Positions 3 to 33,535 of a stretch of DNA of 50,668 nucleotides are shown in pieces. Source of the DNA: a virus. The DNA lies in the IMG/VR virus record IMGVR_UViG_3300042691_045797, positions 1-50,668 of that record. One strand, written 5' to 3'. The stretch's first letter is position 1, and each line of letters starts with the position of its first letter. The notes under the pieces were generated by a model that made no database searches, was not told where the DNA came from, and was given only the letters and a program-made list of their open reading frames with translations. A program made the translations under genes and the position numbers.

Positions 3-95
3 TCAGCCGAACTAACAATAATTGAGGCAATGAACCCAAAGGAATTTTTGGCAAAACACAATTTGAAAAAAATTGGAAAATACGGAAACCTATAA
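3..95 (+). CDS. C-terminal end of an upstream gene (partial)
   Basis: Frame 3 is open from the window edge and stops with TAA at 93-95. The 30 visible residues include EAMNPKEFLAKH and KKIGKYGNL and are Lys-rich. They are too few to name a family. The frame overlaps the TTG start of the next gene by 23 bases, which fits the tight gene packing seen elsewhere. Only the end of the gene is in the window. Confidence 0.5.
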   Translation, partial: SAELTIIEAMNPKEFLAKHNLKKIGKYGNL

Positions 96-705
96 GATAA
101 AAAAAAATTTTATCTCAAAAGATGAAGTAAACCAAATAGTAAATTGGATTGATTCTGTTAATCATAGTGGTAATGACAGTAATCATCACCTAACAGAATT
201 ATCCAAGACACTTAATGGTAAATCTTATATTTTTGATATTTCCAACACGTCTTTAACAAATTATATTACAAAATTTCAGTCAATATCTGATGTATCAAAA
301 GAGGGGTTACCCTCTTTTATTTTTAATATAATTGATAGAATATCTGAGGAGTTTAATTTTCCAAAAGACAACATTTTCCTACAGGCAGTTGATATGAATA
401 AAGGTGGAAAAATAAATCCACATTATGATGCGTCGGTTGATGGGTATATTAATTACAAATGTAATGTGAGTGTTTTATCAGAGGACTATGAATTATTCTT
501 GGATAAAGAATCGATTAAAATTCAAGAAACTGATTTATACGGATTTGAGGCTTCACTATATAAACACTGGACAAATGAGTTTAATTCAAGAAGAATTTTT
601 TTGAGTTTTGGGTTTGTTTTACCATATGAAATTTTAAACAGAACTGAAAATGACCCAAGAATTAGATTAAGTAAAAGAATTGGGAAATACTTCCAACAAC
701 TTTAA
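73..705 (+). CDS. 2-oxoglutarate/Fe(II)-dependent dioxygenase, possible prolyl hydroxylase
   Basis: 210 aa. The C-terminal half shows the double-stranded beta-helix signature of 2OG-Fe(II) oxygenases: HYD at H117/D119, distal H165 in LYKHW, and Arg at 173/174 before a beta strand (RRIFLSFGF), the usual place for the residue that binds 2-oxoglutarate. Such enzymes hydroxylate proteins, nucleotides or small molecules; the H-x-D...H...R layout also fits prolyl 4-hydroxylases. The substrate cannot be read from the sequence. Start: the frame has a TGA at 64-66 and no ATG until about residue 108, so TTG at 73 is the only plausible start, overlapping the upstream gene. It sits just before the Pro/Thr-rich fibre genes, which makes prolines in those linkers a candidate substrate (inference). 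The oxygenase call is fairly firm; the prolyl hydroxylase role is a hypothesis. Confidence 0.72.
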   Translation: MENTETYKIKKNFISKDEVNQIVNWIDSVNHSGNDSNHHLTELSKTLNGKSYIFDISNTSLTNYITKFQSISDVSKEGLPSFIFNIIDRISEEFNFPKDNIFLQAVDMNKGGKINPHYDASVDGYINYKCNVSVLSEDYELFLDKESIKIQETDLYGFEASLYKHWTNEFNSRRIFLSFGFVLPYEILNRTENDPRIRLSKRIGKYFQQL

Positions 706-713
706 TATTTATA
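706..713 (+). promoter_or_regulatory. TATTTATA motif, candidate late promoter
   Basis: TATTTATA ends 14 bases before ATG 728 and continues into AAATA, so it also reads TATAAATA, the T4 late-promoter core, at 710-717. It is one of many copies of TATTTAT(A/T) placed just upstream of structural genes in this window. Promoter function is inferred. Confidence 0.35.
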
Positions 714-727
714 AATAAAGTTTTTGG

Positions 728-1264
728 ATGCCGGCAACAGTCAAGATTGGAAGTAATAATTATAGTGGACAAACAGCAGTAATTACATTTTTGCCTAATA
801 CAGGAGGAACTGTAAATGTTGGCTCACAGGTTATACCATATGACTACTCCACAGATTACTTTTACGGTACATATGAATTAGATTTTACAGGATTTAATTA
901 TACCTGTTCCTTCTCAATTATTTCAGGACAAACTTTACCTGTATTTACTCCACCAACACCAGGTCCAATTACTTACACATTTGACGCCCCATATCAGCAA
1001 GACCCTGAGGTCATGCCAAATCAAACTTTATCAGGAACAAGTTTATCGGCACTTACAACAAATATATTAATCGAACCAAACTTTGCCGGAACTTTTGATG
1101 GTGGTATTTCTCAGTTTAGAATGTATGTTGAGCCATTAAACGCGGCTGAAATAGTACATAACTTTGATATTTTAAAATCCAAGTTTCAGATGTTTGACCC
1201 AAGATGTCCTAATTGTGCTACGGGTGGAACCATAAATGATATTGTAGTTGAAGAAATACCATGA
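728..1264 (+). CDS. Small fibre-type structural protein with shared N-terminal anchor module
   Basis: 178 aa. Residues 1-65 are a beta-rich module (NYSGQ, ITFLPNTGGT, IPYDYSTDYFYGTY, FNYTCSFSI) that recurs at the start of the proteins beginning at 6926 and 13124 and, more diverged, at 1261. The C-terminal part (residues about 115-170: FDGGISQFRMY, LNAAEIVHNF, FDPRCPNC) looks like the closing strands of a LamG/concanavalin-like jelly roll, as found at the ends of phage adhesins, but the domain is too short to be whole. It has no Pro/Thr linker. The stop overlaps the next start as ATGA (1261-1264), so the two are probably translated together. Likely a virion adhesin subunit or a shortened paralogue of the large fibres; the exact role is unknown. 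Confidence 0.6.
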   Translation: MPATVKIGSNNYSGQTAVITFLPNTGGTVNVGSQVIPYDYSTDYFYGTYELDFTGFNYTCSFSIISGQTLPVFTPPTPGPITYTFDAPYQQDPEVMPNQTLSGTSLSALTTNILIEPNFAGTFDGGISQFRMYVEPLNAAEIVHNFDILKSKFQMFDPRCPNCATGGTINDIVVEEIP

Positions 1265-4200
1265 TTACTTATATATTTACAAGTGTTAATTTTTTTGGTC
1301 AATCCATTGATGTTCAATATTCTAAGTACGATTCATTTGACAGAATTAATTTGGGTTCAGGGACTTTTCCATTTCAATATACAACTGAACAAAAGGCCGG
1401 TACTTATTTTTTCTATATAAAAAGTTTAGATAGAACTTTTTCTAAAGTTATTGATATTCCGCCCATAGATATTTATACAAACTTTTTAGATATACCTGAT
1501 TGTGATATTTCAGGAACAACAATTTTTGTACCTGAATGTGATGTTACGGGCACTACAATAACTTACATAAACTGTGACATTGAATTTGAAATATCGTCAT
1601 TAAGTGGTGTTTGCACAACATTTACATATATTGGAAGTGGATTATTTCAACCAGGTTATGTAATATATTATGATTCAAGTGGAGTACAACAAGTCATAGG
1701 TCCGACTACTCAAATTGGGTATACAGAAACAGACTGTGTTTTAATATCTCCATCTACCCCAATAATTAGTCAGTTCTTTACCGTTGTTACGGGAAGCTCT
1801 TGTTCATCTATTATTGATTGTATACCATGTAGAATTTATTTTGCTAGCGTAATTAGTAATGATGTTTATAATTATGAATTATTCGATGGAGAACTAACTT
1901 CATTTATTAATACCAACCCTTCGGGAGGTTTTCTTAGAAATATTGCGGCTTCAAATGTTAGTAATTTATTTTTCTTAAATTATTTATTTCCGACTCAAAC
2001 TAACCAACTTTATATTTACAATGCAAACTTTTTTACAAACCAAATTGTAGGTGGTCCAACTATAGTAAATTTCCCTCAACCTCCATTCCCAACTTTTGCC
2101 ACTTTTGTACAAACAATGGAATCATTGAGTAATGGTGAAGGTGTTATTTATTGTGCAAATGGTTATGATTTAAACGGTTTATCCGCTTTACTGACTTTAG
2201 ATTTAAGTGGAAATGAAACATTTTTAACTTTAATTCCGTCAATAATTCCAGTGTCGATGGTTCTTGCATCGAATAATGTATTGTTTATTTTGGGAACTGG
2301 TGGTCCTTTTGGTGTTTTATATATTTTACAACAGTGGGTTACAGATGGGACTCCTGAAAATACTTTTTTGGATTATGAATTTTCATTTGACCAAAGTGAT
2401 ATTGGGGCAGGTGAAAATACAACAGTAATGTTCATATCAGAAGGACAATTATATTTATCATCAAATCAAAGTGGTAATCTATATAATGTCTATAGCGTAG
2501 ATTCCAATTTCCCTCACTCCATAAACTTAGTTAGTTCTTTTGAAAGTGAATATTGGATTAATCAAGAAGCTCAATTTACCTCATGTAGTGAATTCTTTTT
2601 TTACGGACCACCCCCAAGCCCAACTCCAACTCCTACAAATACAACGACCCCTACAAATACACCAACCACAACATCGTGTGAGGTCGATAATGTTTTTCTT
2701 TTAAAAGGAACAAACCCAACCACACTTTTTGGGTATTCAGTACAATTTAACACTTTAACTCCTTTAACTTTACCAACTGACATTCAAGTACAATCTGGAC
2801 TTGCATTAAATACAACTAAATTATGGACGTTACAAAGAAATATAGAGTTGTCCCAAGTAGCGGTTATAGAATACAATATAACATTATCACCTTGGTCGAT
2901 TACATTTAGTAGGAATATTATTGATACCACGGTTTATCCTCCATCCTTCTGCGCTTTATCTGCATTTAGATTTGGCACTGGTTTAGCAATAAAAAATGAA
3001 AATGTTTTAATAACCACAACAGGTTACTTTGATTCTGTAACACCGGTAAAAATCATAGAATTAGATATAACAACTAATACTGTAGGTATTACTCCGATAA
3101 TTAATTTACCATTAGGTAAAGACGGTTATGATTTAATTTTAAGAAATGATAATACGGTATTAGTTAACACAAGAGATTATAATTCACCATGTGAGTATAT
3201 AGTTTATGCCTACAATTACGGAGTTGGAAATGATGTGCCATTATTTTCAATAACAATCCCTAATATTTCTCCTAACCCATGTAATGGGGCTTTAACCGCA
3301 ATGTTTGAATATAACGGAGATGTTTATGTCACAAGAAATGGACTATCGAGTCAATCTTCGGATGTATTAAAGTTAATACTAACACCTCCTTATGGTTATG
3401 TTTCAGTAAACACATTTACTGAAACAGGTAGATGGTCGGCAGGATACAGTGTGAAAACTAATATTTGTATAACCCCAACTCCAACTCCTACTATTACAAC
3501 AACAGTGACCCCAACTAATACACCCACAACAAATTGTTTAACAACCATAACCATTAACGCAATTCCACCATCACCAGAAATGGTTTTTGAGGTTTCTTCA
3601 GAAAATAACGGTAGTGAGGTTTATACTATGAATGGGACTATATTCCATGACCCGTTTAATCTCGACGGAACAAGTCCTGATAACATATATTTAGCTGTTC
3701 TCACAACAGATGTTGTTTGGAGAAGTAGTAACTATCTTAATGGTCCTCTTAATAGATGTGGTTTATGGGCGGTAGACTCTTATAATTTCCCACTTGACAC
3801 ATGGTTAGGATTCAGTTTATGTATTAATGCTCCTGAGACAAAAACATATTGGGTTGGTCTTGGAGCTGACAATAATTTTAGACTTGTAGTTGACGGTGTT
3901 GAATTTATTAATACCGTAGATGGTATATACGATGGCGGAACAACTCCAGTATATGAACCAACTAAAAATGTTTCTTTTCAATTTTGGCACGTTTATCCAG
4001 TATATTTAACAATTGGGGAACACATTATTGACATTTATGGTTTAAATAGAGATGTATTACTGACGGAGGACCCCAATCAAGGGCCCTCTGGAGCTATTTT
4101 TGGATTTGAAATTTATAATAATACAATAGAGGAACTTTTAACCGCAACGGAACTTTCAGATTTAAACATAATTTATTCATCTAGTGGTCAAACTATTTCA

Positions 4201-6864
4201 ACAACAGTTCAAAATATCTCAGGTCAACCCCTTGAAAATGGATATTTATGTCCCGACGGATACACCTTTAACCCATGCAATTTTAATTGTTTTCAAGTTA
4301 TTAACAATTGCCCAACTCCAACTCCTACAATAACAAATACTTCAACCATTACACCTACAAAGACAGTTACTAAAACCCCAACTACCACAAAAACACCTAC
4401 AAACACTATCACCCCAACTAAAACTGTCACATCTACGCAAACACAAACAAAAACAACAACTCCAACTCCAACTCCGACTAATACACAAACTAAAACTCCA
4501 ACTCCAACTTCAACTCCAACCAATACACAAACTAAAACTAACACACCAACTAATACTCGAACTCAAACAAATACCCCTACAGGATTCCCTGAAGAAAATG
4601 CATTCTTTATTGATTGTTGTTCACCTAATAATACTTTCCAAATATTTAATATGCCTTCGTCGATTTATACTGGATTAACTAATTCAGTAGTATATTTCGT
4701 GAATACTTTTAATTTTTCGGGATGTGCGACTTTCACAACAGCAATAAGTAACTCATCAAATAATTTCCCATATAATGTCGGAGATACATTCATAAGTCAA
4801 ATCGATTGTCTAAATTGCTTATCAGGAAATTCAATTATTTGTCCAACACAAACTCCAACACCAACACCAACATCGACACAAACTCAAACTCCAACCCAAA
4901 CTCCTACCACAACTAATACGCCTACACCTTCTCAAACTTTATCGCAAACTCCAACAAACACCACAACACAAACACCAACAAACACCACAACACAAACACC
5001 TACAAGAGAATCTTATGGTTGTGGACCTGATGAATGTTGTTGTACAACATTTACAAATTTCAATGACTTTGCGGTTTTCATAAAATATAAAGATTGTCAA
5101 AACATCGAAGTATATGCGGAAGTTATTGGAATACAATATTCTCCAAATAATTTTATTGACTTATGTGTTTACAATGGGGAATATACTTTATATCCTGATG
5201 AAAATGTGGTAGTTACTACAAGCCAAAAATGTGTGGCAATAAATGAATTTGGTGATTATGCTTGTCCTGCAACACCAACACCAACTCCTACTAATACCGC
5301 AACACCTACAGTAACATCGACAGTTACACCAACAAAGGTTCCTTGTGAGATAATATTAATTAACGAAAATCCATCAATTGTTGTAAATAATACTAATGAT
5401 TTATCTCAATATTTTTTAGAATCTAACAGTTCACAATTTTTAAGTGTTTCTGATTGGTATCCTAATCCTGATTACGTATTATGGAGAGGGAACGCATTTA
5501 GTCAAACTAAATTATGGATGTGTCAGCCTGATTTAAATCTTGAAGAACAATTATCTCAAATTGGTATTAGAGAATGGAATATTACACTATCTCCTTGGTC
5601 AGCTAGTTTTTCTAGGGATATTGTAGACCCCAACGTCTATCCACCGGGTCAATTATTTAGGTTTGGTAACTCATTGGCCGTCAAAAATTCCACTACCTTG
5701 ATAACCACTGATAGAAACGGTCTTAATAATACCTGCGAACAAATTATAGAGTTAGATATTTCATCTGACATACTTTCAATTACTCCAATAATTGACTTAC
5801 CCCCTAATAAAATTGCCTCTGATGTGTATTTGAGGTCTAATAATACAATACTAATAAACACAAAAGATTTTAATACTTGTGAGTTAATTGTCTATGTGTA
5901 CGATTACTTTGTTGGGAATGATACCCCGTTATTTAATATACTCATCCCACCTTCAAACCCTTCAAACCCTTGTAGTGGAAATATAATAGGAATGTTCGAA
6001 TATAACGGTGACATATATATCACTAGACAAAATCCCGGACAAACATCAAGCATAATTAAATTAATATTGGCAGAACCTTATGGTTATGAAATAGTTAATG
6101 AATATCCTAAACTTATTTCATCGGCTTATAGTATACGTACTGATAATTGCTCAACACCAACGCCAACGCCAACAAACACGGTGACCCCTACTAATACAAT
6201 AACACCTACAGTAACTCCAACTAATACAATAACGTCATCAATCACTCCAACCAATACAAAAACACCTACACCAACTCAAACTCAGACAAAAACTCCAACT
6301 CAAACCAATACACCAACTCCAACCTCGGGAGGAACACCTTCTTGTCCAACGGTAGAAATTGCGGCTTCTTTGGGGGTTAATTTAACTGTTACAAACACTT
6401 CACTTTATAATCTCGACATTTATACCAATGAGTCAACTTACTTAACAACTTTGACAATAGGAAGTAGTCAACAATTTAATCAGAGCACTTTCCCTGACCA
6501 AGCCATAGTTGTTCTACCTGAAGGTTACGATTACACTGGAAATTGTAAAACTTGTTTTACATATGAGGGGTTTGTTGGTGATTGTGAAACAGGATGTCCT
6601 TTTAATGGGGAGGTAGAATTATCAATAGTTGATAATGGAACAATGTTAAGATTCTATAATCCAGGACCAACTTACCTATTGGCATTTGACGATGTAAACA
6701 CATATTTCCAATTATTTGAGGCGGCTCCATCGGCTACTTATGATTATCCATTGTTCTTCTTCCCAAATGATATAATTGTGATTCAACCCGCAGGATTCCA
6801 ATTAGGATTTTGTTATACATGTTATAGTACTATTACATTACTTGAGGTTGCATGCCCAACTTAA
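1261..6864 (+). CDS. Giant modular fibre/adhesin with mucin-like Pro/Thr linkers
   Basis: 1867 aa. Order by approximate residue: diverged anchor module 1-65; Cys-rich region 78-187; propeller-like beta domain 189-445; Pro/Thr linker; propeller-like domain 474-735; linker; a PA14/jelly-roll-like domain 760-965 (WVGLGADNNFRLVVDG, then LTIGEHIIDIYG), a fold that often binds sugars; a small Cys motif (CPDGYTFNPC); a long linker to about 1107; Cys mini-domain 1114-1195; linker; Cys mini-domain 1252-1338; linker; third propeller-like domain 1364-1627; linker; C-terminal module with DCETGC 1694-1867. The propeller-like units share patterns such as ITLSPWS-FSR-I. There is no signal peptide, so it is made in the cytoplasm, as expected for a virion protein. 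It overlaps the preceding gene by 4 bases. Most likely a receptor-binding tail fibre; the module names are by resemblance only. Confidence 0.65.
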   Translation: MITYIFTSVNFFGQSIDVQYSKYDSFDRINLGSGTFPFQYTTEQKAGTYFFYIKSLDRTFSKVIDIPPIDIYTNFLDIPDCDISGTTIFVPECDVTGTTITYINCDIEFEISSLSGVCTTFTYIGSGLFQPGYVIYYDSSGVQQVIGPTTQIGYTETDCVLISPSTPIISQFFTVVTGSSCSSIIDCIPCRIYFASVISNDVYNYELFDGELTSFINTNPSGGFLRNIAASNVSNLFFLNYLFPTQTNQLYIYNANFFTNQIVGGPTIVNFPQPPFPTFATFVQTMESLSNGEGVIYCANGYDLNGLSALLTLDLSGNETFLTLIPSIIPVSMVLASNNVLFILGTGGPFGVLYILQQWVTDGTPENTFLDYEFSFDQSDIGAGENTTVMFISEGQLYLSSNQSGNLYNVYSVDSNFPHSINLVSSFESEYWINQEAQFTSCSEFFFYGPPPSPTPTPTNTTTPTNTPTTTSCEVDNVFLLKGTNPTTLFGYSVQFNTLTPLTLPTDIQVQSGLALNTTKLWTLQRNIELSQVAVIEYNITLSPWSITFSRNIIDTTVYPPSFCALSAFRFGTGLAIKNENVLITTTGYFDSVTPVKIIELDITTNTVGITPIINLPLGKDGYDLILRNDNTVLVNTRDYNSPCEYIVYAYNYGVGNDVPLFSITIPNISPNPCNGALTAMFEYNGDVYVTRNGLSSQSSDVLKLILTPPYGYVSVNTFTETGRWSAGYSVKTNICITPTPTPTITTTVTPTNTPTTNCLTTITINAIPPSPEMVFEVSSENNGSEVYTMNGTIFHDPFNLDGTSPDNIYLAVLTTDVVWRSSNYLNGPLNRCGLWAVDSYNFPLDTWLGFSLCINAPETKTYWVGLGADNNFRLVVDGVEFINTVDGIYDGGTTPVYEPTKNVSFQFWHVYPVYLTIGEHIIDIYGLNRDVLLTEDPNQGPSGAIFGFEIYNNTIEELLTATELSDLNIIYSSSGQTISTTVQNISGQPLENGYLCPDGYTFNPCNFNCFQVINNCPTPTPTITNTSTITPTKTVTKTPTTTKTPTNTITPTKTVTSTQTQTKTTTPTPTPTNTQTKTPTPTSTPTNTQTKTNTPTNTRTQTNTPTGFPEENAFFIDCCSPNNTFQIFNMPSSIYTGLTNSVVYFVNTFNFSGCATFTTAISNSSNNFPYNVGDTFISQIDCLNCLSGNSIICPTQTPTPTPTSTQTQTPTQTPTTTNTPTPSQTLSQTPTNTTTQTPTNTTTQTPTRESYGCGPDECCCTTFTNFNDFAVFIKYKDCQNIEVYAEVIGIQYSPNNFIDLCVYNGEYTLYPDENVVVTTSQKCVAINEFGDYACPATPTPTPTNTATPTVTSTVTPTKVPCEIILINENPSIVVNNTNDLSQYFLESNSSQFLSVSDWYPNPDYVLWRGNAFSQTKLWMCQPDLNLEEQLSQIGIREWNITLSPWSASFSRDIVDPNVYPPGQLFRFGNSLAVKNSTTLITTDRNGLNNTCEQIIELDISSDILSITPIIDLPPNKIASDVYLRSNNTILINTKDFNTCELIVYVYDYFVGNDTPLFNILIPPSNPSNPCSGNIIGMFEYNGDIYITRQNPGQTSSIIKLILAEPYGYEIVNEYPKLISSAYSIRTDNCSTPTPTPTNTVTPTNTITPTVTPTNTITSSITPTNTKTPTPTQTQTKTPTQTNTPTPTSGGTPSCPTVEIAASLGVNLTVTNTSLYNLDIYTNESTYLTTLTIGSSQQFNQSTFPDQAIVVLPEGYDYTGNCKTCFTYEGFVGDCETGCPFNGEVELSIVDNGTMLRFYNPGPTYLLAFDDVNTYFQLFEAAPSATYDYPLFFFPNDIIVIQPAGFQLGFCYTCYSTITLLEVACPT
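2608..2676 (+). repeat. Pro/Thr linker 1 in the 1261-6864 protein
   Basis: The coding strand reads as alternating Pro and Thr with Asn inserts (PSPTPTPTNTTTPTNTPTTT). It links the first and second propeller-like domains. Built from CCA/CCT/CCC and ACA/ACT/ACC codons in mixed order, so the repeat is kept at protein rather than exact DNA level. Confidence 0.75.
3472..3534 (+). repeat. Pro/Thr linker 2 in the 1261-6864 protein
   Basis: Short TPTPTPTITTTVTPTNTPTT-type linker between the second propeller-like domain and the PA14-like domain. Confidence 0.72.
4312..4581 (+). repeat. Pro/Thr linker 3, about 90 residues, mucin-like
   Basis: About 90 residues made almost only of Thr, Pro, Asn, Gln and Lys, in units such as PTNTQTKTPT. 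Most alternate positions are Thr. It separates the PA14-like part from the first Cys mini-domain. The antisense strand shows a spurious Val-rich open frame, a by-product of the repeat. Confidence 0.8.
4843..5004 (+). repeat. Pro/Thr linker 4
   Basis: About 54 residues of PTQTPT, TSTQTQTPTQ and a direct duplication of the unit QTPTNTTT near 4949-4998, where the DNA is also nearly identical. It lies between two Cys mini-domains. Confidence 0.78.
5265..5334 (+). repeat. Pro/Thr linker 5
   Basis: Short ATPTPTPTNTATPTVTST-type linker joining the second Cys mini-domain to the third propeller-like domain. Confidence 0.72.
6151..6342 (+). repeat. Pro/Thr linker 6
   Basis: About 64 residues of PTNTVTPTNTITPT-type sequence before the C-terminal DCETGC module. 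Thr, Pro and Asn dominate; the only charged residues are a few Lys. Confidence 0.78.
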
Positions 6865-6925: not shown

Positions 6926-9900
6926 ATGCCAGAAGTAGTTCTAATATCATCCGAAAATTTTGACGGTCAGTTAGCTTTAGTAACATTTTATCCGTGTACT
7001 GGAGGTACTATAACAATAGGTTATGTTACAATACCATATAACTATGAAGCCGATTATATCTATGGAACTTATACTTTATATTTTGAGGAATATAATGAAA
7101 CTTGTGAATTTTCCATACCTTGTCCATCCCCGACCCCTACACCAACAAATACAATTACACCAACTAAAACAAGGTCTAATGTAACTCAAACACCTACACC
7201 AACCAAAACATCCACCCCAACACCAACATCCGTTTGTTTTTGTTACAATTATAGAAATACGGACAGTCAAAAAGATGGAAAAATAGAATATTATAACTGT
7301 TCAGGTCAATTTACACAAACATCAGTAGACCCTAACGACACTTTACCTTTATGTGTTTCATTGACGGGTACCCAATCATCATTTGTGGTTGTTAGTTTGT
7401 TAGGTCCTTGTAATGGAGGAAGTTGCACAACCCCAACCCCAACTCCTACAAATACTGCGACCCCTACAAGAACTCCTACCTTGACACCAACTAATACCCC
7501 AACCGATACACCTCCCAAAACTCCAAAACCGACGAGGACTCCGACACCAACAATGACCCCAACAAGAGTTCCAAATATTAATAGATGCCACGTTTTTTAT
7601 GTAACAAGAAGTAATCAAGTATATGTTTATAATCCCGAGAACTTCCAATCAATAAATTTAACATCATTCTTTTTGGATGAAAGTCTTGTTGGTTATAGTT
7701 TGGATATTGCACACACTGAAGACACACTTTGGTTGTTAGGACTCGGTTCAATACAAGAGTGGGTTATTACATTAAATCCATTTTCGGCTCAATTCTCAAG
7801 ATATATTACAATACCTTATCCTAACAACGGGGACGGACTTGCGGTAATTGATAGTGGTACTTTAATATTACCAAGAAATACAGACATTCCAAACCAACCT
7901 AATCAAATAATAAAATTAGACATAACTAGTTCTGATAACATTGGTAATCCTCAAATTATAATCTTCTTACCATTAGGTAGAACAGTTTCAGGAGATATTT
8001 CTTATAATAATGATGGTAGATTATTAATTACAAATGGAGACATCAATGGTAATACATTCATAACACAATACGATTATAGTACACTACTGCCCGAGGTTGA
8101 AATAAATATATCCAATTCGGTTGATTCTCCGGCTGGGTTATATTCGCACAATAACAGTATCTATGTTGTAAATTATAATAATGTAGGACAGTCGTATCAA
8201 ATGAATACAATTTACCCCTACAATATTTCTTTTTCAAATAATATAAATCCTAGAATAAAAGGAACATCTCAATTAACTGAATGTTTCAGAAATACTTTTA
8301 GATTAATACCTCAACTATCACAAACGCCAACACCTACAATTACCCCAACTAAAACAACAACTCCTACAAAAACTCCTACAAACACCAATACCCCAACAGT
8401 AACTCCAACTAAATGTTGTAATACTTGGAATCCATACGGTGGAGGTAGTTTAGTCACGGGTACAACATTTTTAGTAAGCTATTGTGATGGCTCATCAGGA
8501 ACTATATACATCCCACCAATAACACAATATTCTCAAATATATGGTACAAATCTTTGTGCATTCACTGTAGTTGTATTGAATGGATTTGGTAATAATGGAG
8601 GTTCATTAGGTTGTAATTGTGTTGGGCCAACGCCAACACCAACACCTACTATGACAAATACACCAACAAGACAAAGGGAATGTTTAGATTGTGATTTGAC
8701 GGGTACAGGATTTACTACAAATCAAAGTTGTGAGGTTTTATTAAGAGCAGAATCTGCAATTTATAAATATGATTTCTATTCACCAAACACTTCAGTACAA
8801 CTCAATATACCTAATTTATCTGTTTCGGCGGCAGATTTAACTCATACTAATAATAAATTATTTGCTCAACATAGTTTTGTAGGTGGTGGATTTACTAGTA
8901 TAAGAGTTTGGGACATAGTTATACCATCATTTAATGCAAATTACCTTCAAGATATTGAGTTAGATTTTTCAATAGGATTTGGTATTTTTGCATTGAATAA
9001 CACTACATTGGTTGTCACCACAGGCTCAACTCAATCGTGTTTTATTGAAATTGACATTACTGACCCATCAAATATTACAACAACTTTTAAATTCTGTTTG
9101 GGTGAAAATAGAAAAGTTTCAAACGGTTCCAATTTCTTAATTAATGATAATAACAAATTGATTGTTTCAAACACACTGAACGACACTCCTGATTATTATT
9201 ATATTACACAATATAATTATTTAACGGGTGACCTCGAAACGGATGCATTGGTTGCGGTACAACCAAACATTAGTATTAATAGATTTATAATTTTAGAAAA
9301 TTCAAGTCAGATTATAATTGGTAAAGGGGACCTTTATACAATACCTCTTAATGACCCATATTCTCCTTTGACTTTTTACGGAAATCCAAACTTTACACTT
9401 GGCCCTGAAATTTATGGAGCGTCCCAAAGATATAACGTTGGTTGTTTACCTGTAGAATTTATACAACCACAACCTTCGCCAACACCAACTCCAACTAATA
9501 CAATGACTCCAACAATAACACAGACACCAACCCAAACTTGTGCAAGACCTGAAGGGTTAACGAATTTATCAATGGTAATTGGATACACAAGTTTTAGAAC
9601 AGACCCACCTACACCATATTCTTGGTTGTTTCAGACTAATGCTAATATAGTTTGTGAATTATTTAATGGTTTAGTTGTGGATACCCAAGGAGGTAATCCT
9701 TTACCTTCCATTGCATCTGCTACATACAAAATTATACTTAACGATGCTTGGACTAGTGGTAATCCCGTAGGTGAGAGAGTTTATGCTCTTACAGGTACAG
9801 ACTGTCAATGTGTAAATGTTGGAAATTTCTACGGTCTTTACACACCAGTAGACCCAAGTGCTAGTCTTCAAAATGCAAACCCTTTAAATATTTTAAACAA

Positions 9901-20836: not shown

Positions 20837-20837
20837 G

Positions 20838-26584: not shown

Positions 26585-27439
26585 ATGCATCTAATTTTAT
26601 CTCACATAGGACTTGAATTACCTAATCATCTTGAGGATTGTCTTACACAAACTAGAAAATTTTATGACGGCCCTATAACAATTGTAACTAATTCAATTAA
26701 CACTGATTGGGTGAAAAAATATGAAGTAAACATTGAAAATATAAATTTTGAAAATGAAAAATTTAAAATATCTCAAATTGTAAACTTCAGTGAAAATCCT
26801 ACTAGAAATTTCTGGTTATATACACTGGCTAGATTGTTCTTTATAGAAGATTTTGTCGTAAAAAATAAAATCGATAATTTTGTTCTGTTTGAAAATGATG
26901 TCTTAATATTTTCTAATTTAAACGAAATAATAGATAAAATGTCAAATATATATAAAAATGTATCAATTACTATGTCTTGTGATTTGAGGGCAACAACAGG
27001 ATTTTCCTTTTTCAAATCTTATAAAGATTTAATTAGACTAACTAATGATATTATTGAATTAATTAATAAATTTAATGGAATTATTCCTGAATTTGGTAAG
27101 TATCCAAGTGAAATGATGTTTATTAGAAAAATTTCTAAGACCAAAGATTACATATCTTCTCTACCAATTTTTCCAACTGATGAGTTTTTTGGACATTTTA
27201 ACTTTGTTTTTGACCCGGCGTCTTATGGTCAATTTTTAGGTGGCTACCCAATAATTCACGGAGGTTCTAGTGAGCCTCATATTGATTTAGGTACTTATAT
27301 TGGGAAAAAAATTGATGACGGGGAATACAGAGTTTTTTTTGACAAAAAAGATGGGCCATTTATAACTAATAATAAAAATGAAAAATTTAAAATTTATAAT
27401 TTACATGTTTGGTCTAAAAATCTAAAAAAATTTTTATAA
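26585..27439 (+). CDS. Putative GT-A-like glycosyltransferase
   Basis: 284 aa. It opens LILSHIGLELPNHLEDCLTQTRKFY, with ITIVTNS as a second strand, and has NFVLFENDVLIFSNL at about 98-112, where END stands in the DxD position. ATTGFSFFKSYKDLI and IIHGGSSEPHIDLGTYIG are further blocks; a His/Gly motif near the C-terminus is common in capsule-type glycosyltransferases. Starts one base after the FkbM stop. The glycosyltransferase call rests on the motif, the fold pattern and the cluster, not on a clear family match. Confidence 0.5.
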   Translation: MHLILSHIGLELPNHLEDCLTQTRKFYDGPITIVTNSINTDWVKKYEVNIENINFENEKFKISQIVNFSENPTRNFWLYTLARLFFIEDFVVKNKIDNFVLFENDVLIFSNLNEIIDKMSNIYKNVSITMSCDLRATTGFSFFKSYKDLIRLTNDIIELINKFNGIIPEFGKYPSEMMFIRKISKTKDYISSLPIFPTDEFFGHFNFVFDPASYGQFLGGYPIIHGGSSEPHIDLGTYIGKKIDDGEYRVFFDKKDGPFITNNKNEKFKIYNLHVWSKNLKKFL

Positions 27440-27443
27440 AAAA

Positions 27444-28178
27444 ATGGTTTCAGTAAGATTTGAAGGTAGACTTGGTAATAATTTAATTCAATATTTGGTG
27501 GCTAAATTATTTGCAAATAAAAATAATTTATTTTTAAAATTAGAGCCACACATAGAAAATTTACCTTGTATAAAAAAATTAAATAACATTGGTAATAATT
27601 TTGAAAAAAATGAAGTAATTCAGATAAATGACAATAACTTTATAGATTTTTTTAGAGAAAAAAAAATAGGAGAATTTCATTACAGATTCGACGGGTTTTT
27701 TCAAAAAAAAGAATTTTTTTATGAGTATGGAAACGAAATAAAAAAATTACTTAACTACGAAATAGACCAAATAGATGAAACTGATTTTTTTATTCACTAC
27801 AGAATAGGAGATAATGACGGCTCTAATAGAATGTTACCTTTAGAGTATTATATAGAGGGTATAGAAAAATTCGGTCTAGGTAAAGGTTTTATAAGTACTG
27901 ATAGTATAGGTCATCCTAATTGTAATTATTTAATAGAGAAATATAATCTCACTCCTATAAATTTATCTGATATACAAACAATTCTTTACGGCAAAAACTT
28001 TAAAAATTTAATTTTATCTGAAGGTACTTTTTCATGGTGGATAGCCTTTTTAAGTGAATCAAAAAATATTTTTTGTAATAAAAGAGAATTCAAATGGCAT
28101 GGAGATATTTTTTTTGATGAGTGGAACTATACATCTTGGGAATATATTAAAGAAGAAAGTAAGTGGAAAAAATTGTAA
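27444..28178 (+). CDS. GT11-like alpha-1,2-fucosyltransferase
   Basis: 244 aa. Shows the GT11 landmarks in order: an N-terminal FEGRLGNNLIQYLVAKLFA (usual form GGLGNQLFQYA), FFIHYRIGDN with H118-R120-G122-D123 (the HxRxGD donor-binding motif), and a C-terminal LILSEGTFSWWIAFL at about 189-203 (usual form S-x-STFSWWxAxL). It is somewhat shorter than the typical 280-300 aa. GT11 enzymes transfer fucose from GDP-fucose, usually to galactose. Which sugar it fucosylates here is unknown, and no GDP-fucose synthesis gene is in the window, so the donor would come from the host or another part of the genome. Confidence 0.75.
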   Translation: MVSVRFEGRLGNNLIQYLVAKLFANKNNLFLKLEPHIENLPCIKKLNNIGNNFEKNEVIQINDNNFIDFFREKKIGEFHYRFDGFFQKKEFFYEYGNEIKKLLNYEIDQIDETDFFIHYRIGDNDGSNRMLPLEYYIEGIEKFGLGKGFISTDSIGHPNCNYLIEKYNLTPINLSDIQTILYGKNFKNLILSEGTFSWWIAFLSESKNIFCNKREFKWHGDIFFDEWNYTSWEYIKEESKWKKL

Positions 28179-28219
28179 GTTTAAAATTTTACCAAAAAAA
28201 TATTCATTTATGTAAATAA

Positions 28220-30574
28220 ATGTATTATTTTTTCTTAAAAAGAACTATGCCATTCAGTACAAATTATTTCAAAGAGGAAACAAAAAAATTCATAGAAAAA
28301 AATTTCGAAAAAGAAATAAAAATTTTAGACATAGGTGCCGGAGCAGGAACTTACTCTAATTTACTCAAACCCTTGGGATATAAAAATTTGGACTGTGTTG
28401 AAGTATTCGAAGAATACGTTGATAAGTTCAGTCTGCGTCAAAAATACGACAAAGTTTTAATTGGAGATATTACTAAACTAAAAATTGATTTTAAAAAATA
28501 CGATTTAATCATTTTAGGTGATGTTTTAGAACATATTGATAAACTTTCAGCAATCAAACTAATAAATAGGATAAAAGGTGTCCCAACCATTATTGGAGTT
28601 CCTTTTGAGTCAGAACAAGGTGAGAGCTTTGGGAACATCCATGAAACTCATCTACAACCAGATTTAACTTTAGAAAATTTTGTAGAGAGATTTGAGGGAT
28701 TTCATCCAATATGTTTAAGATTTGATTATGGTATATTTTATAATAGAATCCCTGAGGAAATTTATTTTGAAGTCGGCCAAACACAAATTCCTAATAACTT
28801 TTTAAAATTTATTGTTAATAACTACACTGACGCAAATTACATTTATTTGAACCAACAACCTAAAGTAGAAGTTTCTAAACCTAAAAATGATAATAAAGTT
28901 ACAATTGTTACTGGTCTTTGGGATTTAGGTAGAGGTAAAATAAGTGATTCCTTTAAAAGAGGTTATGAGGATTACAAAGAAAAATTCAGTCAGTTATTAA
29001 AAACTGATGTAAATATGTATATTTTCTGTGACCCTTCAGACGAAGAATTTATTTGGTCACATAGAAGTAAAGAAAATACAGTTGTGAACAAAATGACTCT
29101 TAATGATTTAAGAGAATGGTTTAATTTTACAAAACTAACAGATGAAATAAGACAAAAAGAAGAATGGTTATCGCAAGCTTCTTGGTTAAGGGAGTCCCCC
29201 CAAGCAACTTTAGAGGGGTATAATCCACTTGTAATGAGTAAAATGTTTATGCTCAATAATGTTACAATTTGGAATCCTTTTAACAGTGAATACTTCTTTT
29301 GGATTGACGCAGGTATATCAAATACGGTTCATTACGGTTATTTTACTCATGACAAAGTATTTGATAAACTACCAAGTTTTATAAATGAAAACGGTGATTT
29401 TGTATTTTTGACTTACCCATATGAGGGCGGTGGAGAAATACATGGTTTTGAGCGTTCAGCAATTGCCAAATATGCCGAAACTGAATATGTGAAGTTTGTT
29501 TGTAGAGGAGGATTCTTCGGGGGTAAAAAATCTAGAATAAACGAAATAAATGGACTATATTATGGTTATTTAAGTTCTTCATTAAATGAAGGGTATATGG
29601 GAACTGAAGAAAGTATTTTCAGTATTCTGTTATATAAACATTCTGATTTAATTGTCCAATATAATATAAAAGGGGATGGTTTGATTTGGCCGTTTTTTGA
29701 GGACCTGAAAAATGAAAAGTATAAAGACAACGTACAAATAAAAGTTCATGAAGGTAAATTAGATTTAAGTAAAGTGGGTTTGTACGTTATTACATTTAAT
29801 AGTACCAACCAATTCGAGACATTAATCAATTCTATGCTCGAATACGATGACGATTTTATACGTAAACCTAAAAAGTTTTTGTTGAATAATTCAACTGATT
29901 TATCAACTACCGAAAAATACATAGAACTTTGTGAAAAACATGGATTTGAACATATTAAAAAAGATAATTTAGGTATTACTGGTGGAAGACAATGGATTGC
30001 TGACCACTTTGACAAAACAGATTTGGATTTTATGTATTTTTTTGAGGATGATATGTTTTTCCATTTAAAGAAGGGAGAAACTTGTAGAAATGGATTTAAT
30101 AGATATGTAACAAATTTATATCAAAAAACTTTAGAGATTGTCGAAAAAGAAAAGTTTGATTTTTTAAAGTTGAATTTTAGTGAATTTTTTGGGGACAACT
30201 CCATACAATGGAGTTGGTATAACGTACCACAAGTTTTTAGAGAATCTCATTGGCCGAAAAATCAAAAATTACCAAAAATGGGATTGGACCCCAATGCCCC
30301 AAGAACACAGTTCAATGAGATAAAATCTCATAAAGGAGTCCCTTATGCCTCTGGAGAAATTTATCTATGTAATTGGCCGATTCTTCTAACTAAAAAAGGA
30401 AGTTATAAATGTTATTTGGAGACGGTTTATGCCTCTCCGTTTGAACAAACACTAATGTCCCATAATTATCAAGAAACTATTAAGGGTAATTTAAATCCCG
30501 CAATTCTACTTATGACCCCAACTGAACATAATAGATTTGAACATTATGATTCTTCTTTGAGAAAAGAGTGTTAA
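28220..30574 (+). CDS. Three-domain methyltransferase / HtrL-WlaTC-like / glycosyltransferase fusion
   Basis: 784 aa. Residues about 10-200: class I SAM methyltransferase with ILDIGAGAGTYSNLL and LIILGDVLEHI. Residues 227-500: HtrL/YibB-WlaTC-like domain (VTIVTGLWDLGRG, FFWIDAGISN, CRGGFFGGKKS, GTEESIFSILL). Residues 517-784: GT-A-like domain with VGLYVITFNSTNQFETLI, a KFLLNNSTD turn and the acidic motif FMYFFEDDMFFHL; its last part (GEIYLCNWPILLTKKG) looks like an acceptor site. The domain order is the reverse of 18557-20836, which ends with the methyltransferase. ATG 28220 is used; ATG 28247 (MPFSTNYF) is a good alternative that removes a short hydrophobic leader. It closes the glycosylation cluster. 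Confidence 0.65.
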   Translation: MYYFFLKRTMPFSTNYFKEETKKFIEKNFEKEIKILDIGAGAGTYSNLLKPLGYKNLDCVEVFEEYVDKFSLRQKYDKVLIGDITKLKIDFKKYDLIILGDVLEHIDKLSAIKLINRIKGVPTIIGVPFESEQGESFGNIHETHLQPDLTLENFVERFEGFHPICLRFDYGIFYNRIPEEIYFEVGQTQIPNNFLKFIVNNYTDANYIYLNQQPKVEVSKPKNDNKVTIVTGLWDLGRGKISDSFKRGYEDYKEKFSQLLKTDVNMYIFCDPSDEEFIWSHRSKENTVVNKMTLNDLREWFNFTKLTDEIRQKEEWLSQASWLRESPQATLEGYNPLVMSKMFMLNNVTIWNPFNSEYFFWIDAGISNTVHYGYFTHDKVFDKLPSFINENGDFVFLTYPYEGGGEIHGFERSAIAKYAETEYVKFVCRGGFFGGKKSRINEINGLYYGYLSSSLNEGYMGTEESIFSILLYKHSDLIVQYNIKGDGLIWPFFEDLKNEKYKDNVQIKVHEGKLDLSKVGLYVITFNSTNQFETLINSMLEYDDDFIRKPKKFLLNNSTDLSTTEKYIELCEKHGFEHIKKDNLGITGGRQWIADHFDKTDLDFMYFFEDDMFFHLKKGETCRNGFNRYVTNLYQKTLEIVEKEKFDFLKLNFSEFFGDNSIQWSWYNVPQVFRESHWPKNQKLPKMGLDPNAPRTQFNEIKSHKGVPYASGEIYLCNWPILLTKKGSYKCYLETVYASPFEQTLMSHNYQETIKGNLNPAILLMTPTEHNRFEHYDSSLRKEC

Positions 30575-30598
30575 TTCCATATTTATAGGTATGGAATT
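30573..30598 (+). other. Hairpin spanning the stop-start junction at the end of the glycosylation cluster
   Basis: AATTCCATA (30573-30581) and TATGGAATT (30590-30598) form a perfect 9-bp stem with an 8-base loop, followed by T residues. It overlaps the stop of the previous gene and the ATG at 30591, and the TATTTATA motif falls within it. It could act as a weak terminator for the cluster or hide the start codon in read-through RNA. Confidence 0.45.
30580..30587 (+). promoter_or_regulatory. TATTTATA motif before the second fibre pair
   Basis: The motif ends only 3 bases before ATG 30591. If it is a promoter, the transcript would be nearly leaderless for this gene. It is in the same orientation as the gene, like the other copies. 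Confidence 0.3.
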
Positions 30599-30959
30599 TT
30601 TCATTACACAGAATTCTACTTTACCTATTTTAAAAATGGAACTTGATTACAATGGTAAATCTTCGGTCGAGGAATTTAACGACTTAATTGAGAATTCTAC
30701 TATATTATTTTCTATGGTTGAGGTGGAAAACGGTAATTTTAAAATAGTGAACAAAAAAGGTGGATTTACAAATAAAATATTCCAAGAACCAAATGCCAAA
30801 ACAGAATATTATTTGTATTACCCATTTAGTTTATTTGACACAAACAAAAAAGGTAGATATGAAGGGTTGTTTACTTTAATTTCAGAGGATGGCACATCCA
30901 TATTACCCATAAAAGAAAAATTATATATAAACGTCGTTGAAAATCATATAAGGGTATAA
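30591..30959 (+). CDS. Small BppU-N-like baseplate/fibre anchor protein
   Basis: 122 aa. It is a stand-alone copy of the N-terminal domain of the next protein: both begin MEF, then S/NSTLPILKME, a middle KGRYEGLFTLISEDGTSILP block and a final KEKLYINVV. The layout (QNSTLP at the start, YxFSLxDT, G-R-x-E, P-x-KEKxYxN) resembles the N-terminal domain of phage baseplate upper proteins (BppU_N family), which plug receptor-binding proteins into the baseplate. It shares a single base with the next start (TAATG). It may cap or space the same attachment site that the larger protein uses (inference). No other domain is present. Confidence 0.55.
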   Translation: MEFFITQNSTLPILKMELDYNGKSSVEEFNDLIENSTILFSMVEVENGNFKIVNKKGGFTNKIFQEPNAKTEYYLYYPFSLFDTNKKGRYEGLFTLISEDGTSILPIKEKLYINVVENHIRV

Positions 30960-33535
30960 TGGAATTTTACATTAATCAAAGCTCCACTTTACCCGTATTG
31001 AAGATGGAGGTTATAAAAGACGGCAGAAGTGATTTTAATTTTAATTCACTTTTAGATGGTAATGCAACATTTTTAATTTCATTATTTGACAAATCGACCG
31101 ACAAATTTTTATTTGCATCCAAACAATGTGAATTAATTACTGAATATAGTGAATTTGAAGGGAAAAATTTATATTTTTTATCTTACCAGTTTTCTATAAG
31201 GGATACAATAAAATCAGGTAGGTTTGAGGTACAGATTTCAATACCATCAGAAAATGGTGTTATACTTTTACCGTTAAAAGAAAAATTTTACGTAAACATT
31301 ATTCCGACCTTTGTTGGTGACATTTTAAACTATAATAATTCATCTTTTACCGCCGATTTACCTTGTTGCGGATTCCAACAAACTTACACTTTTGAACAAA
31401 TAACACTAGACGCATATTACAATCCTGGCTCTTTAGTTGTTGATTATTTTTTGTATAGTTCGGTTTCTTATTCTGAACCAATTTTGATTTCATTTATAAA
31501 TGAAATTTTAACATACAGTGGTAGTTCAATTATTATATCAACGGGTATTACATTAAGTGCAGGGGAAAACATTTCTTACTCACAAGCTAATTTTGAAGGT
31601 GTTGATTTTAATAATATAAAACCGCAATCGATTTTTAGTAATATATCAATACAAAGTGTATTACCTGATACAATATTAAATTTATCAAATGGGGTATTTT
31701 TTGCAACACCTCCTCCGACAAGAACACCAACCAGAACAGTGACTCCAACACTTACCCCAACTAATACTGTTACACCGACTAATACTATTACACCAACCGT
31801 AACTAAAACAAGTACTCAAACTATTACCCCTACTAAAACACCTACAAATACCCCAACTAATACTACAACTGTAACAAACACTCCAACAAATACAATTACT
31901 GGTACCCAAACTCAAACACCAACTACAACTCAAACTCCTACAAATACCCCAACTTCCACCGGACCATGTTGTAAACAATGGCAGGTTTATGGAGGACCAA
32001 TTTTTGGTAGTTATGTTGACGTATTGTCCTGTGATAATACCATTTCATCGGTTTACGTTGGGTCAGAAATTACTCAAACTTTCCCTTGCATTAAAAATGC
32101 TATAATTACATCAGGAGACGGACAAGTTTTCCAAAGTAGTGAGTGTATTTGCACAACACCATTACCAACACCAACGTCTACAGTAACTCCAACTTCATTT
32201 ACCCCCACACCAACTCCTACTATTACGACAACAGTGACTCCTACAAACACAAACACAAATACTCAAACTAATACTCCAACCACAACACAAACTAATACCC
32301 CAACAACTACAGAGACCCCAACTAATACACCTACAACAACTCAAACTCCAACGACTACAGAGACCCCAACTAATACCCCAACTTCTAGTAACACACCAAC
32401 AAATAGTGTAACTCCAACAAATAGTGTAACTCCAACAAATACCCAAACTCCAACAAACACTGTTACTCAAACAGTTACTAATACTAATACTCCAACTCAA
32501 ACTGAAACTCCAACTAATACAGTGACTCCCACAAACACCCCAACGAATACTTTAACACAAACAAACACCCCAACGGTTACAATGACTCCTAATACATGTA
32601 AATGTTATAATTTATTTAATACAGGTAATACTTCGTCAACAAATGTTGATTACTTCGATTGTTCGGGAGTTTTATCACAAATAACAATTCAAGCCGGTGA
32701 TTATGGACAAATTTGTGTAAGAAATGAACAGTACACCGCAAGTACTTCTATTGGGGTTACTTATTTACTTGGAGATTGTACTTCAGGTTGTCCTATAATT
32801 AGTGCGGATACGTGCTCGGTTTTTGTTTTAAACTTATCTAATAGAGTTATTTATTCTTACAATTCAGATACAAATACACAAATTCCTCTTCCAATAGGTA
32901 TAAGTGGAGATACTTTATATGATATTGCAACTAATGATAACTTACTATGGATTTATGGTACATTCATAGGTGGTTCAGTTGGTATTAGAGAATTTAATAT
33001 AACAAGAAATCCATTTACTGCAACATTTAACAGGTTTATTACATTAAGTTCGGTTCCGTATGCAAACCAAAGAAACGGTTTGGCGGTAGTAAATAACACA
33101 ACACTTTTGGTTTCGTCAGGTGTCACAAACGGAACTGCAATTGCCTCAATTAACATAACAACAACTGCCTCTACTCCTTCATTATTATTTAATTTGGATA
33201 CCGACAGAGTGTTAAGAGGAGATTTAATTTATACCTCAACAGGAAAAGTGATAATATCTACATTTAATATAACTGCAGGAACAGGAAGTTTCATTACCCA
33301 ATACACATTAGCTGGAGTCAAAGAATTAGAAATTTCAAATGGAAATGCCACAAACGGTTTTGCATTCTACATTCATAACTCAGAGTTCTATACAGTTGTA
33401 AATAATGTTTCGCCGGCATCTCGACAGAAGAGAAACTTAACCACACCATACACACCAACATCATTAACAAGTATGTCAATAGGTAACCATGGTTTAGCTC
33501 AGCCTTTAAGCTGTTTGAATGTTAATTTTACATAG
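30959..33535 (+). CDS. Modular fibre with BppU-like anchor and the longest Pro/Thr linkers
   Basis: 858 aa. Residues 1-118: anchor like the previous gene (INQSSTLPVLKMEV, SGRFEVQISIPSENG, PLKEKFYVNII). Residues 119-250: a beta-rich region with one CC pair. Then a linker of about 88 residues, a Cys mini-domain (CCKQWQVYGG, 338-397), a linker of about 145 residues, a second Cys mini-domain (CKCYNLF, YFDCSG) at about 545-620, and a propeller-like domain (LLWIYG, IREFNITRNPFTATFNRFI) to the end. The Cys mini-domains and propeller are the same modules as in the 728-17236 proteins, but the anchor differs, so this fibre probably attaches at another site. Ends with a normal domain and no sign of truncation. 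Confidence 0.66.
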   Translation: MEFYINQSSTLPVLKMEVIKDGRSDFNFNSLLDGNATFLISLFDKSTDKFLFASKQCELITEYSEFEGKNLYFLSYQFSIRDTIKSGRFEVQISIPSENGVILLPLKEKFYVNIIPTFVGDILNYNNSSFTADLPCCGFQQTYTFEQITLDAYYNPGSLVVDYFLYSSVSYSEPILISFINEILTYSGSSIIISTGITLSAGENISYSQANFEGVDFNNIKPQSIFSNISIQSVLPDTILNLSNGVFFATPPPTRTPTRTVTPTLTPTNTVTPTNTITPTVTKTSTQTITPTKTPTNTPTNTTTVTNTPTNTITGTQTQTPTTTQTPTNTPTSTGPCCKQWQVYGGPIFGSYVDVLSCDNTISSVYVGSEITQTFPCIKNAIITSGDGQVFQSSECICTTPLPTPTSTVTPTSFTPTPTPTITTTVTPTNTNTNTQTNTPTTTQTNTPTTTETPTNTPTTTQTPTTTETPTNTPTSSNTPTNSVTPTNSVTPTNTQTPTNTVTQTVTNTNTPTQTETPTNTVTPTNTPTNTLTQTNTPTVTMTPNTCKCYNLFNTGNTSSTNVDYFDCSGVLSQITIQAGDYGQICVRNEQYTASTSIGVTYLLGDCTSGCPIISADTCSVFVLNLSNRVIYSYNSDTNTQIPLPIGISGDTLYDIATNDNLLWIYGTFIGGSVGIREFNITRNPFTATFNRFITLSSVPYANQRNGLAVVNNTTLLVSSGVTNGTAIASINITTTASTPSLLFNLDTDRVLRGDLIYTSTGKVIISTFNITAGTGSFITQYTLAGVKELEISNGNATNGFAFYIHNSEFYTVVNNVSPASRQKRNLTTPYTPTSLTSMSIGNHGLAQPLSCLNVNFT
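31706..31965 (+). repeat. Pro/Thr linker in the 30959-33535 protein (first)
   Basis: About 87 residues of PTRTPTRTVTPTLT, PTNTVTPTNTIT and PTNTPTNTTT-type units. It joins the beta-rich region to the first Cys mini-domain. Confidence 0.8.
32153..32595 (+). repeat. Pro/Thr linker in the 30959-33535 protein (second, longest in the window)
   Basis: About 145 residues nearly all Thr, Pro, Asn, Gln and Ser with a few Val and Glu. Sub-repeats include TTTETPTNTPTT (twice) and TPTNSV (tandem, 32394-32430, DNA identical: ACTCCAACAAATAGTGTA). Such exact tandem copies could expand or contract by slippage or recombination. Confidence 0.82.

Follow-up and report, generated by a model that had tools for sequence, protein, structure and literature searches.

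A candidate phage-encoded cassette for mucin-type O-glycosylation of Pro/Thr linkers, built around a GT60 enzyme and an HtrL_YibB partner

The DNA considered here, called the window, is the entire 50,668-base virus record IMGVR_UViG_3300042691_045797 and belongs to a contractile-tailed phage. It carries genes for fibre-like proteins with linkers rich in proline and threonine, a gene at 17304 for a glycosyltransferase of family GT60, a conserved second protein region that joins an HtrL_YibB domain to a transferase-like domain (the partner), a series of genes lying between these two (the cargo) and, at 73, an open reading frame (ORF 73) for a protein with an oxygenase fold. From the genes, their predicted folds, the linker pattern, co-occurrence and gene order, the set probably serves the O-glycosylation of fibre linkers, as a cytoplasmic cassette of mucin type encoded by the phage, with Thr as the likeliest acceptor. 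The first 25 kb of the window gave no megablast match among 50,697 phage records. IMG/VR is rich in relatives of its genes, on contigs that reach 430 kb, and the window is therefore probably a fragment of a jumbo phage. Relatives were taken as the best 80 of 174 GT60 loci by similarity, the best 80 of 99 ORF 73 loci and the best 80 of 247 DNA polymerase loci, near-duplicates included; genome searches covered 40 loci from each of the 80 found by ORF 73 and the 80 found by polymerase, all on contigs with a length of some 40 kb or more. As many of these contigs are fragments, absences are soft.

Pro/Thr linkers, predicted originally in four fibre proteins, are indeed present in the proteins at 1261–6864, 6926–10906, 13124–17236 and 30959–33535, and the criterion that finds them there finds none in 728–1264 or 10920–13121. 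That their bearers are tail fibres is inferred, since phrog_15511, which they match, has no known function and the structural context consists of the weak virion match of 728–1264 and the sheath at 42250. The 20 linkers of the window comprise 739 residues, of which 344 are Thr, 164 are Pro and only 32 are Ser. Alternate positions can be read in two registers; in the better one, Thr occupies 83% of them, against a mean of 53% and a maximum of 57% in 1000 shuffles, while the other register holds 39% Pro, together with Asn, Thr, Gln, Val, Lys and others. The pattern is therefore T-x-T-P rather than proline-centred, with Thr rather than Pro in register. The window has long Pro/Thr/Ser-rich stretches, as in mucin-like proteins, and phage-borne transferases linked to structural genes, presumably of fibres. 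Repeated beta-propeller-like segments, as read from the sequence, separate the linkers of 1261–6864, 6926–10906 and 13124–17236, some of which share an N-terminal domain with 728–1264. The proteins at 30591–30959 and 30959–33535 open with a common MEF[FY]I.Q.STLPILKM, and the former has no PHROG match. Elsewhere, the contigs of loci L103, L136, L137, L147 and L148 carry many Pro/Thr linkers with the same Thr register and no GT60 match; another modifying enzyme, a cut-off cassette or no enzyme at all are the alternatives there.

Judged by its sequence, the assignment of 17304–18551 to GT60, already made in the original prediction, is beyond doubt: PF11397, the Pfam GlcNAc (N-acetylglucosamine) domain, matches at 224.9 bits against a cut-off of 21 (E 2.6e-66) and phrog_24687 at E 9.8e-171. 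The AlphaFold2 model (pLDDT 90.6) retrieves polypeptide GalNAc (N-acetylgalactosamine)-transferases in the first 30 rows of Foldseek (TM about 0.5) and in all of rows 1–29 of VIA (Z 19.0–22.4, rmsd 3.2–4.2, 259–281 aligned residues), the first row of another kind following at Z 16.4. The VIA alignments, which come from a search with the whole model, stop at model residue 301 to 330 in every one of these rows but one. The predicted fold is thus nearest to the mucin-initiating polypeptide GalNAc-transferases and points to polypeptide acceptors. DSHMRF and WHEYTR are kept in 43 of 43 GT60 sequences, a longer HGEE pattern in 38 of the 43; the GT60 proteins of the jumbo phages XacN1 and RAS14 carry LDSHHRF and WHEYTR. 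The DSH and WHE motifs may correspond to the DxH and downstream His metal site of polypeptide GalNAc-transferases. According to the available parts of the literature, GT60 enzymes are polypeptide alpha-GlcNAc-transferases akin to polypeptide GalNAc-transferases, acting on Thr in Trypanosoma cruzi mucins and on hydroxyproline in Skp1 (PMC8724618, PMC9472816, PMC6939170); the GlcNAc-alpha-O-Thr of T. cruzi mucins is made by a GT60 enzyme (PMC9472816), and GT60 enzymes are described as having no C-terminal ricin-like domain (PMC8724618). Four divergent GT60 proteins (L506, L507, L501 and L505), at 34–38% identity to that of the window, have no HtrL_YibB partner nearby.

The most conserved companion of GT60 is a region overlooked in the original prediction, and the architecture is stronger than was noted there. 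Indeed, nearly all GT60 genes of this phage group are accompanied by the partner, for example in L001 (21177–22925) and L002 (20713–22326). Of 80 loci, 77 have it downstream of GT60, at a distance of 3 to 7,649 bases (the HtrL part in 77, the C-terminal part in 73), and in the three others the contig ends 91, 1,494 and 2,051 bases on. In the polymerase sample, it is present in 26/26 GT60-positive and 5/14 GT60-negative contigs, and in these five it sits no more than about 4.1 kb from the contig end towards which GT60 would be expected. In the ORF 73 sample, strong partner matches occur in 13 of 16 GT60-positive contigs versus none of 24 negative ones (p 4.7e-8). Among ten GT60 contigs found by linker pattern, eight have the partner (L496 as two pieces), and the two without it have GT60 proteins at 35.5 and 37.5% identity to that of the window. 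XacN1 and RAS14 also carry it behind their GT60. Pfam lists HtrL_YibB as a family of unknown function; the C-terminal part of the partner weakly matches phrog_842, a glucosyltransferase family (E 5.7e-4). In mycobacteriophage WIVsmall, a gene with the annotation HtrLYibB has neighbours, a few kb away at most, that are listed as glucosyl- and glycosyltransferases in the available part of its description (PMC10453261), and the partner family may therefore serve virion glycosylation more widely.

The genes between GT60 and its partner are far less constant. In 74 loci, the two are separated by 279 ORFs of at least 110 residues, all on the GT60 strand, which fall into 68 families, 35 of them singletons. 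Ten representatives were scanned; they include GT25 (one family, 44 loci), GT10 fucosyltransferases, a GT7C-like galactosyltransferase, GT2, FkbM and a rhamnosyl O-methyltransferase-like protein, and two had no match. In the window itself (Table 1), the sugar methyltransferases originally predicted are borne out by the two FkbM proteins, both over the Pfam cut-off. The alpha-1,2-fucosyltransferase-like reading of 27444 is upheld as regards a glycosyltransferase, through its PHROG family, whereas its GT11 match stays below the Pfam cut-off. We take the HFRSGD motif of 21508 to suggest a fucosyltransferase-like enzyme. None of ten island proteins matched an NCBIfam model at E 0.05, and sequence searches of the PDB with ORF 73, GT60, 27444 and 21508 gave no match.

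Table 1. Features of the window and the basis of each assignment (SAM, S-adenosylmethionine; HexNAc, N-acetylhexosamine)
Position	Strand	Feature	Basis
73..705	+	2-oxoglutarate (2OG)-Fe(II) oxygenase-fold protein (ORF 73), 210 aa, TTG start	invariant HxD..H..R, AlphaFold2 fold
728..1264	+	small protein without Pro/Thr linker; N-terminal domain common to fibre-like proteins (by eye)	phrog_8510 virion structural protein, E 3.9e-5 (weak)
1261..6864	+	fibre-like protein, 1867 aa, 7 Pro/Thr linkers between 2608 and 6351	phrog_15511, E 1.1e-15
6926..10906	+	fibre-like protein, 1326 aa, 4 Pro/Thr linkers (5 by another criterion)	phrog_15511, E 1.4e-9
10920..13121	+	733-aa protein without Pro/Thr linker, possibly structural	sequence
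13124..17236	+	fibre-like protein, 1370 aa, 3 Pro/Thr linkers	phrog_15511, E 2e-13
17304..18551	+	GT60 polypeptide HexNAc-transferase-like enzyme, proposed first step on linkers	PF11397, phrog_24687, predicted fold
18557..20836	+	multi-domain cargo, C-terminal methyltransferase-like part (read from sequence)	no Pfam match over cut-off; relatives in 15/80 GT60 loci
20829..21533	+	cargo, paralogue of 22410 by eye, probable GT2-like transferase	sequence; no Pfam match
21508..22398	+	cargo	HFRSGD motif; no Pfam or PDB match
22410..23099	+	cargo, GT2-like, below cut-off	PF00535, E 0.0082
23117..23758	+	cargo	no Pfam match; relatives in 5/80 GT60 loci
23765..24490	+	cargo	no Pfam match over cut-off; relatives in 0/80 GT60 loci
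24614..25372	+	cargo, RXYLT1_C / exostosin-like transferase	PF24785, E 2.2e-6, 27.7 bits vs cut-off 27
25369..25962	+	FkbM-type methyltransferase	PF05050, E 8.5e-11
25969..26583	+	FkbM-type methyltransferase	PF05050, E 2.6e-16
26585..27439	+	cargo	no Pfam match over cut-off
27444..28178	+	GT11-like (alpha-1,2-fucosyltransferase-like) transferase	PF01531, E 5.5e-4, 19.7 vs 23.9 bits (below cut-off); phrog_2644 glycosyltransferase, E 1.5e-7
28220..28894	+	N-terminal SAM methyltransferase domain of 784-aa protein	PF13489/PF08241 over cut-off; aligned in 5/80 GT60 loci, so not conserved
28895..30574	+	conserved partner: HtrL_YibB + C-terminal transferase-like domain, ~558 aa	PF09612, E 1.4e-21
30591..30959	+	122-aa protein, start common to next fibre-like protein (by eye)	relatives in 73/80 GT60 loci
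30959..33535	+	fibre-like protein, 858 aa, 6 Pro/Thr linkers between 31706 and 32575	phrog_15511, E 8.6e-12
33627		DNA polymerase	profile match
	-	helicase and Ad2-like gene	profile match
42250		tail sheath	profile match

GT60 and linkers tend to occur together. A Pro/Thr linker lies within the fetched flanks of 77 of the 80 GT60 loci (near-duplicates included) and of 42 of the 80 ORF 73 loci, and the three GT60 loci without one (L073, L082 and L084) are each cut on one side. Among the 40 contigs chosen by ORF 73, the linker pattern is found in 16/16 with GT60 versus 7/24 without it (p 6.7e-6). Clustering at 97% ORF 73 identity, a cluster being scored positive if any member contig is, leaves 14/14 versus 2/13 (p 6.0e-6), and clustering at 88% identity 11/11 versus 2/10 (p 2.2e-4). 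Starting from the linkers, GT60 was found in 10 of the 50 viral contigs selected through a PTPTxTPT codon pattern versus none of the 50 selected through the reversed pattern (p 0.0012), each set being 50 of at least 80 loci, with median contigs of 46 kb and 35 kb, respectively; among contigs of at least 40 kb the counts are 9/32 versus 0/16 (p 0.02). As to gene order, a linker-bearing ORF immediately precedes GT60 in 47 of 74 loci, and linker-bearing ORFs come after the partner in 40 of 59.

We infer the acceptor, the sugars, the order of the steps and the benefit as follows. In the cytoplasm of the bacterium, the soluble GT60 enzyme would add a first sugar, probably GlcNAc, to Thr in the T-P-T-x linkers of newly made fibre proteins. 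The HtrL_YibB/transferase region would then add the next sugar or sugars, and the variable genes in the middle (glycosyltransferases, FkbM and other methyltransferases) would finish and vary the glycan, much as in O-antigen loci. The outcome would be fibre stalks that are stiff, protease-resistant and antigenically variable. The idea, put forward in the original prediction, of a phage that builds mucin-like glycosylated linkers with its own soluble enzymes thereby gains the standing of a well-founded hypothesis, owing to the cluster counts and the GalNAc-transferase-like fold.

Several known systems resemble parts of this scheme. Like the alpha-GlcNAc-transferases of GT60 (TcOGNT1 of T. cruzi, Gnt1 of Dictyostelium and Toxoplasma), the enzyme of the window has the PF11397 domain and a fold related to GalNAc-transferases; like the cytosolic Gnt1, it has no membrane stretch, and Thr-rich acceptors such as those of T. 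cruzi mucins are likewise available to it. Unlike them, it is borne by a phage, beside fibre-like genes and a variable glycan cassette, and its acceptor and sugar are predictions only. As in the Skp1 pathway (PhyA, Gnt1, PgtA and further enzymes), GT60 is proposed to act first and the second enzyme has two transferase-like domains, as PgtA does. However, the window differs in having no regular hydroxylase and, apparently, a repeated Thr acceptor instead of a single hydroxyproline; the first domain of its partner is HtrL_YibB and the second has a weak PHROG transferase match, neither being known as GT74 or GT2. In Paramecium bursaria Chlorella virus (PBCV) and mimivirus, virus-encoded glycosylation and hydroxylation machineries modify virion proteins; these are, in contrast, viruses of eukaryotes, and their known enzymes belong to other families.

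Further parallels come from phages. The GT60 proteins of three jumbo phages, XacN1, RAS14 and CM1, are 45–49% identical to that of the window, and in XacN1 and RAS14 GT60 is likewise followed by other genes and then by the HtrL_YibB-transferase; unlike the window, both have no ORF 73 match, and their linkers, which mix Ser and Thr, are encoded on the opposite strand at a distance of about 9.4 kb. By sequence match, ORF334 of XacN1 is the GT60 gene and one of its phage-encoded transferases. At least two virion glycoproteins are reported for XacN1, phage-encoded transferases being suggested as the source; in the passages available, the glycoproteins are not named and no tail fibres were seen or annotated, so that the linker-bearing protein of XacN1 is without a proven place in the virion (PMC5852040). 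In mycobacteriophages, phage transferases and methyltransferases are proposed to modify virion proteins (Freeman et al. 2023, as cited in other papers), as proposed here, although at the C-termini of capsid and tail-tube proteins and not at mucin-like linkers. As phage virion glycosylation is already known, the present proposal extends it rather than adding a new kind. Apart from the XacN1 paper, the parts of the open literature that were searched describe no GT60 or mucin-like pathway in phages, which does not show its absence in print.

Some observations weigh against the glycosylation of linkers by GT60. The association is weak among the contigs chosen by polymerase, where linkers occur in 25/26 with GT60 versus 11/14 without it (p 0.11). 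One GT60 contig of 94 kb (G010) has no linker pattern, and contigs of 108 to 217 kb (G052, G067 and G070) are rich in linkers and have no GT60 match. Nor does the Thr register set GT60 phages apart, since the GT60-negative linkers of five ORF 73 loci resemble GT60-positive ones both in T/(T+S) (0.82 vs 0.85) and in the share of Thr in register (0.55 vs 0.53), as measured with a loose detector over six frames that is diluted by chance frames. With the loose detector, T/(T+S) is only 0.57 and 0.39 in the Ser/Thr-mixed linkers of XacN1 and RAS14. In the ORF 73 sample, three GT60 contigs have no strong partner match (a weak partial one in G042, none in G041 and G046). Finally, the partner and the cargo could act on something other than fibres.

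One such target would be the host surface: in the course of infection, the cassette might alter its glycans (core of the lipopolysaccharide (LPS), capsule), for instance as a means of shutting out competitors, the linkers being flexible spacers. HtrL is known from bacterial LPS-related loci, to which GT25 also belongs according to its Pfam description. Furthermore, glycosyltransferase clusters of jumbo phages are filed under capsular polysaccharide modification in the available part of one paper (PMC7824862). This reading nevertheless appears unlikely, as the predicted GT60 fold is that of polypeptide-acting enzymes and GT60 co-occurs with linkers in the phages that share ORF 73. Moreover, a strongly hydrophobic stretch (19-residue window of at least 1.8 on the Kyte-Doolittle scale) is found in only 2 of the 279 cargo ORFs of at least 110 residues, so that there is no clear sign of the membrane-bound flippases and polymerases that surface glycans call for.

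Other proteins of the virion, such as capsid or sheath, might also be the substrates, the linker co-occurrence then reflecting only the large modular fibres of GT60 phages. In mycobacteriophages, virion glycans are indeed located on the C-termini of capsid and tail-tube proteins according to the passages available (PMC12619734); the glycoproteins of XacN1 are unnamed and Thr-register linkers exist without GT60. The position of linker ORFs directly before GT60 and after the partner, as well as the GalNAc-transferase-like fold, speak against such substrates, which makes this reading quite unlikely.

The original prediction had arranged the genes in an ordered pathway, in which ORF 73 hydroxylates linker prolines and GT60 then glycosylates the hydroxyproline, as on Skp1 in Dictyostelium and Toxoplasma. 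That ORF 73 has the fold and residues of a 2OG-Fe(II) oxygenase is well supported: H117, D119, H165 and R173/R174 (the HxD...H...R/K triad and the 2OG-binding residue) are invariant in 32 of 32 aligned sequences, and the AlphaFold2 model (pLDDT 83.9) is a double-stranded beta-helix oxygenase on which Foldseek and VIA agree, although neither Pfam (at E 0.1) nor PHROG (at E 0.01) has a family that matches the sequence. The prolyl 4-hydroxylases (P4H) occupy the first Foldseek rows, with the Dictyostelium enzyme 6t8m on top (E 4.7e-7, TM 0.48). In VIA, which also included a PBCV hydroxylase structure, AlkB rows come first (Z 14.1), tied with an algal P4H solved with a Ser-Pro peptide (Z 13.9). 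Structure prediction, proposed as a check on both enzymes, thus gave GT60 a polypeptide-transferase fold, whereas for ORF 73 the tie between AlkB and P4H leaves the latter in particular undecided by fold.

The ordered pathway is compatible with the 164 prolines of the linkers and with the polymerase sample, where the 9 of 40 contigs that carry ORF 73 all have GT60 (several are near-duplicates). However, 17 of the 26 GT60-positive contigs of that sample, including some of 322, 294, 241 and 223 kb, have no ORF 73 match, nor do XacN1 and RAS14 (deposited complete and GT60-bearing) by tblastn. Conversely, a GT60 match is missing from 24 of the 40 ORF 73 contigs, one of them of 430 kb, and 17 of these 24 have no linker pattern either. 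Unrelated oxygenases might replace ORF 73 in other phages: in 25 records, PF13640 matched none and PF13759 two, one of them over the cut-off, and these models also missed ORF 73 where it is present (G031, G014). No bacterial relative of ORF 73 was found in 50 pattern matches from a scan of bacterial contigs. In 44 dereplicated ORF 73 loci, the neighbours are fairly constant, with a long gene mostly upstream (36 loci) and DNA polymerase downstream (27 loci), so that its nearness to the GT60 island may be just its usual genome position. These counts and the two complete phages disfavour hydroxyproline as an obligatory first step, and an obligatory route from ORF 73 to GT60 was rejected as a general mechanism. 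As Thr rather than Pro is in register and AlkB-type folds fit ORF 73 equally, the ordered pathway is very unlikely. Rather than a regular GT60 partner, ORF 73 is probably an oxygenase with another or only an occasional role; in those phages that carry it, it may still hydroxylate the linkers.

Least probable of all is that the linkers are unmodified entropic spacers that arose by slippage of DNA repeats and are unrelated to the enzymes: short tandem repeats do occur in them, and linkers exist without a GT60 match, but those of the window keep their amino-acid register and yet draw on every one of the four codons for Thr and the four for Pro, which argues against slippage alone, and GT60 and linkers are associated in the ORF 73 set.

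Globally, a cytoplasmic O-glycosylation cassette acting on Thr of the fibre linkers remains the probable reading. Its fullest form, a complete mucin-type system of large aquatic phages in which GT60 would act on Thr at every second residue, HtrL_YibB would build the core and a swappable cassette would set a fibre 'serotype', with linkers perhaps also proline-hydroxylated in the ORF 73 subset, is more tentative, doubt and belief being nearly balanced. If true, mucin-type glycosylation would exist outside eukaryotes, in bacteriophages, where the start and core of the glycan would be fixed and its outer part exchangeable, and its site would be fibres that may come into contact with the host. This would bear on fibre stiffness, on resistance to proteases and antibodies and on host recognition. 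It would also give HtrL_YibB proteins a testable role and provide soluble enzymes for making mucin-like polymers in bacteria.

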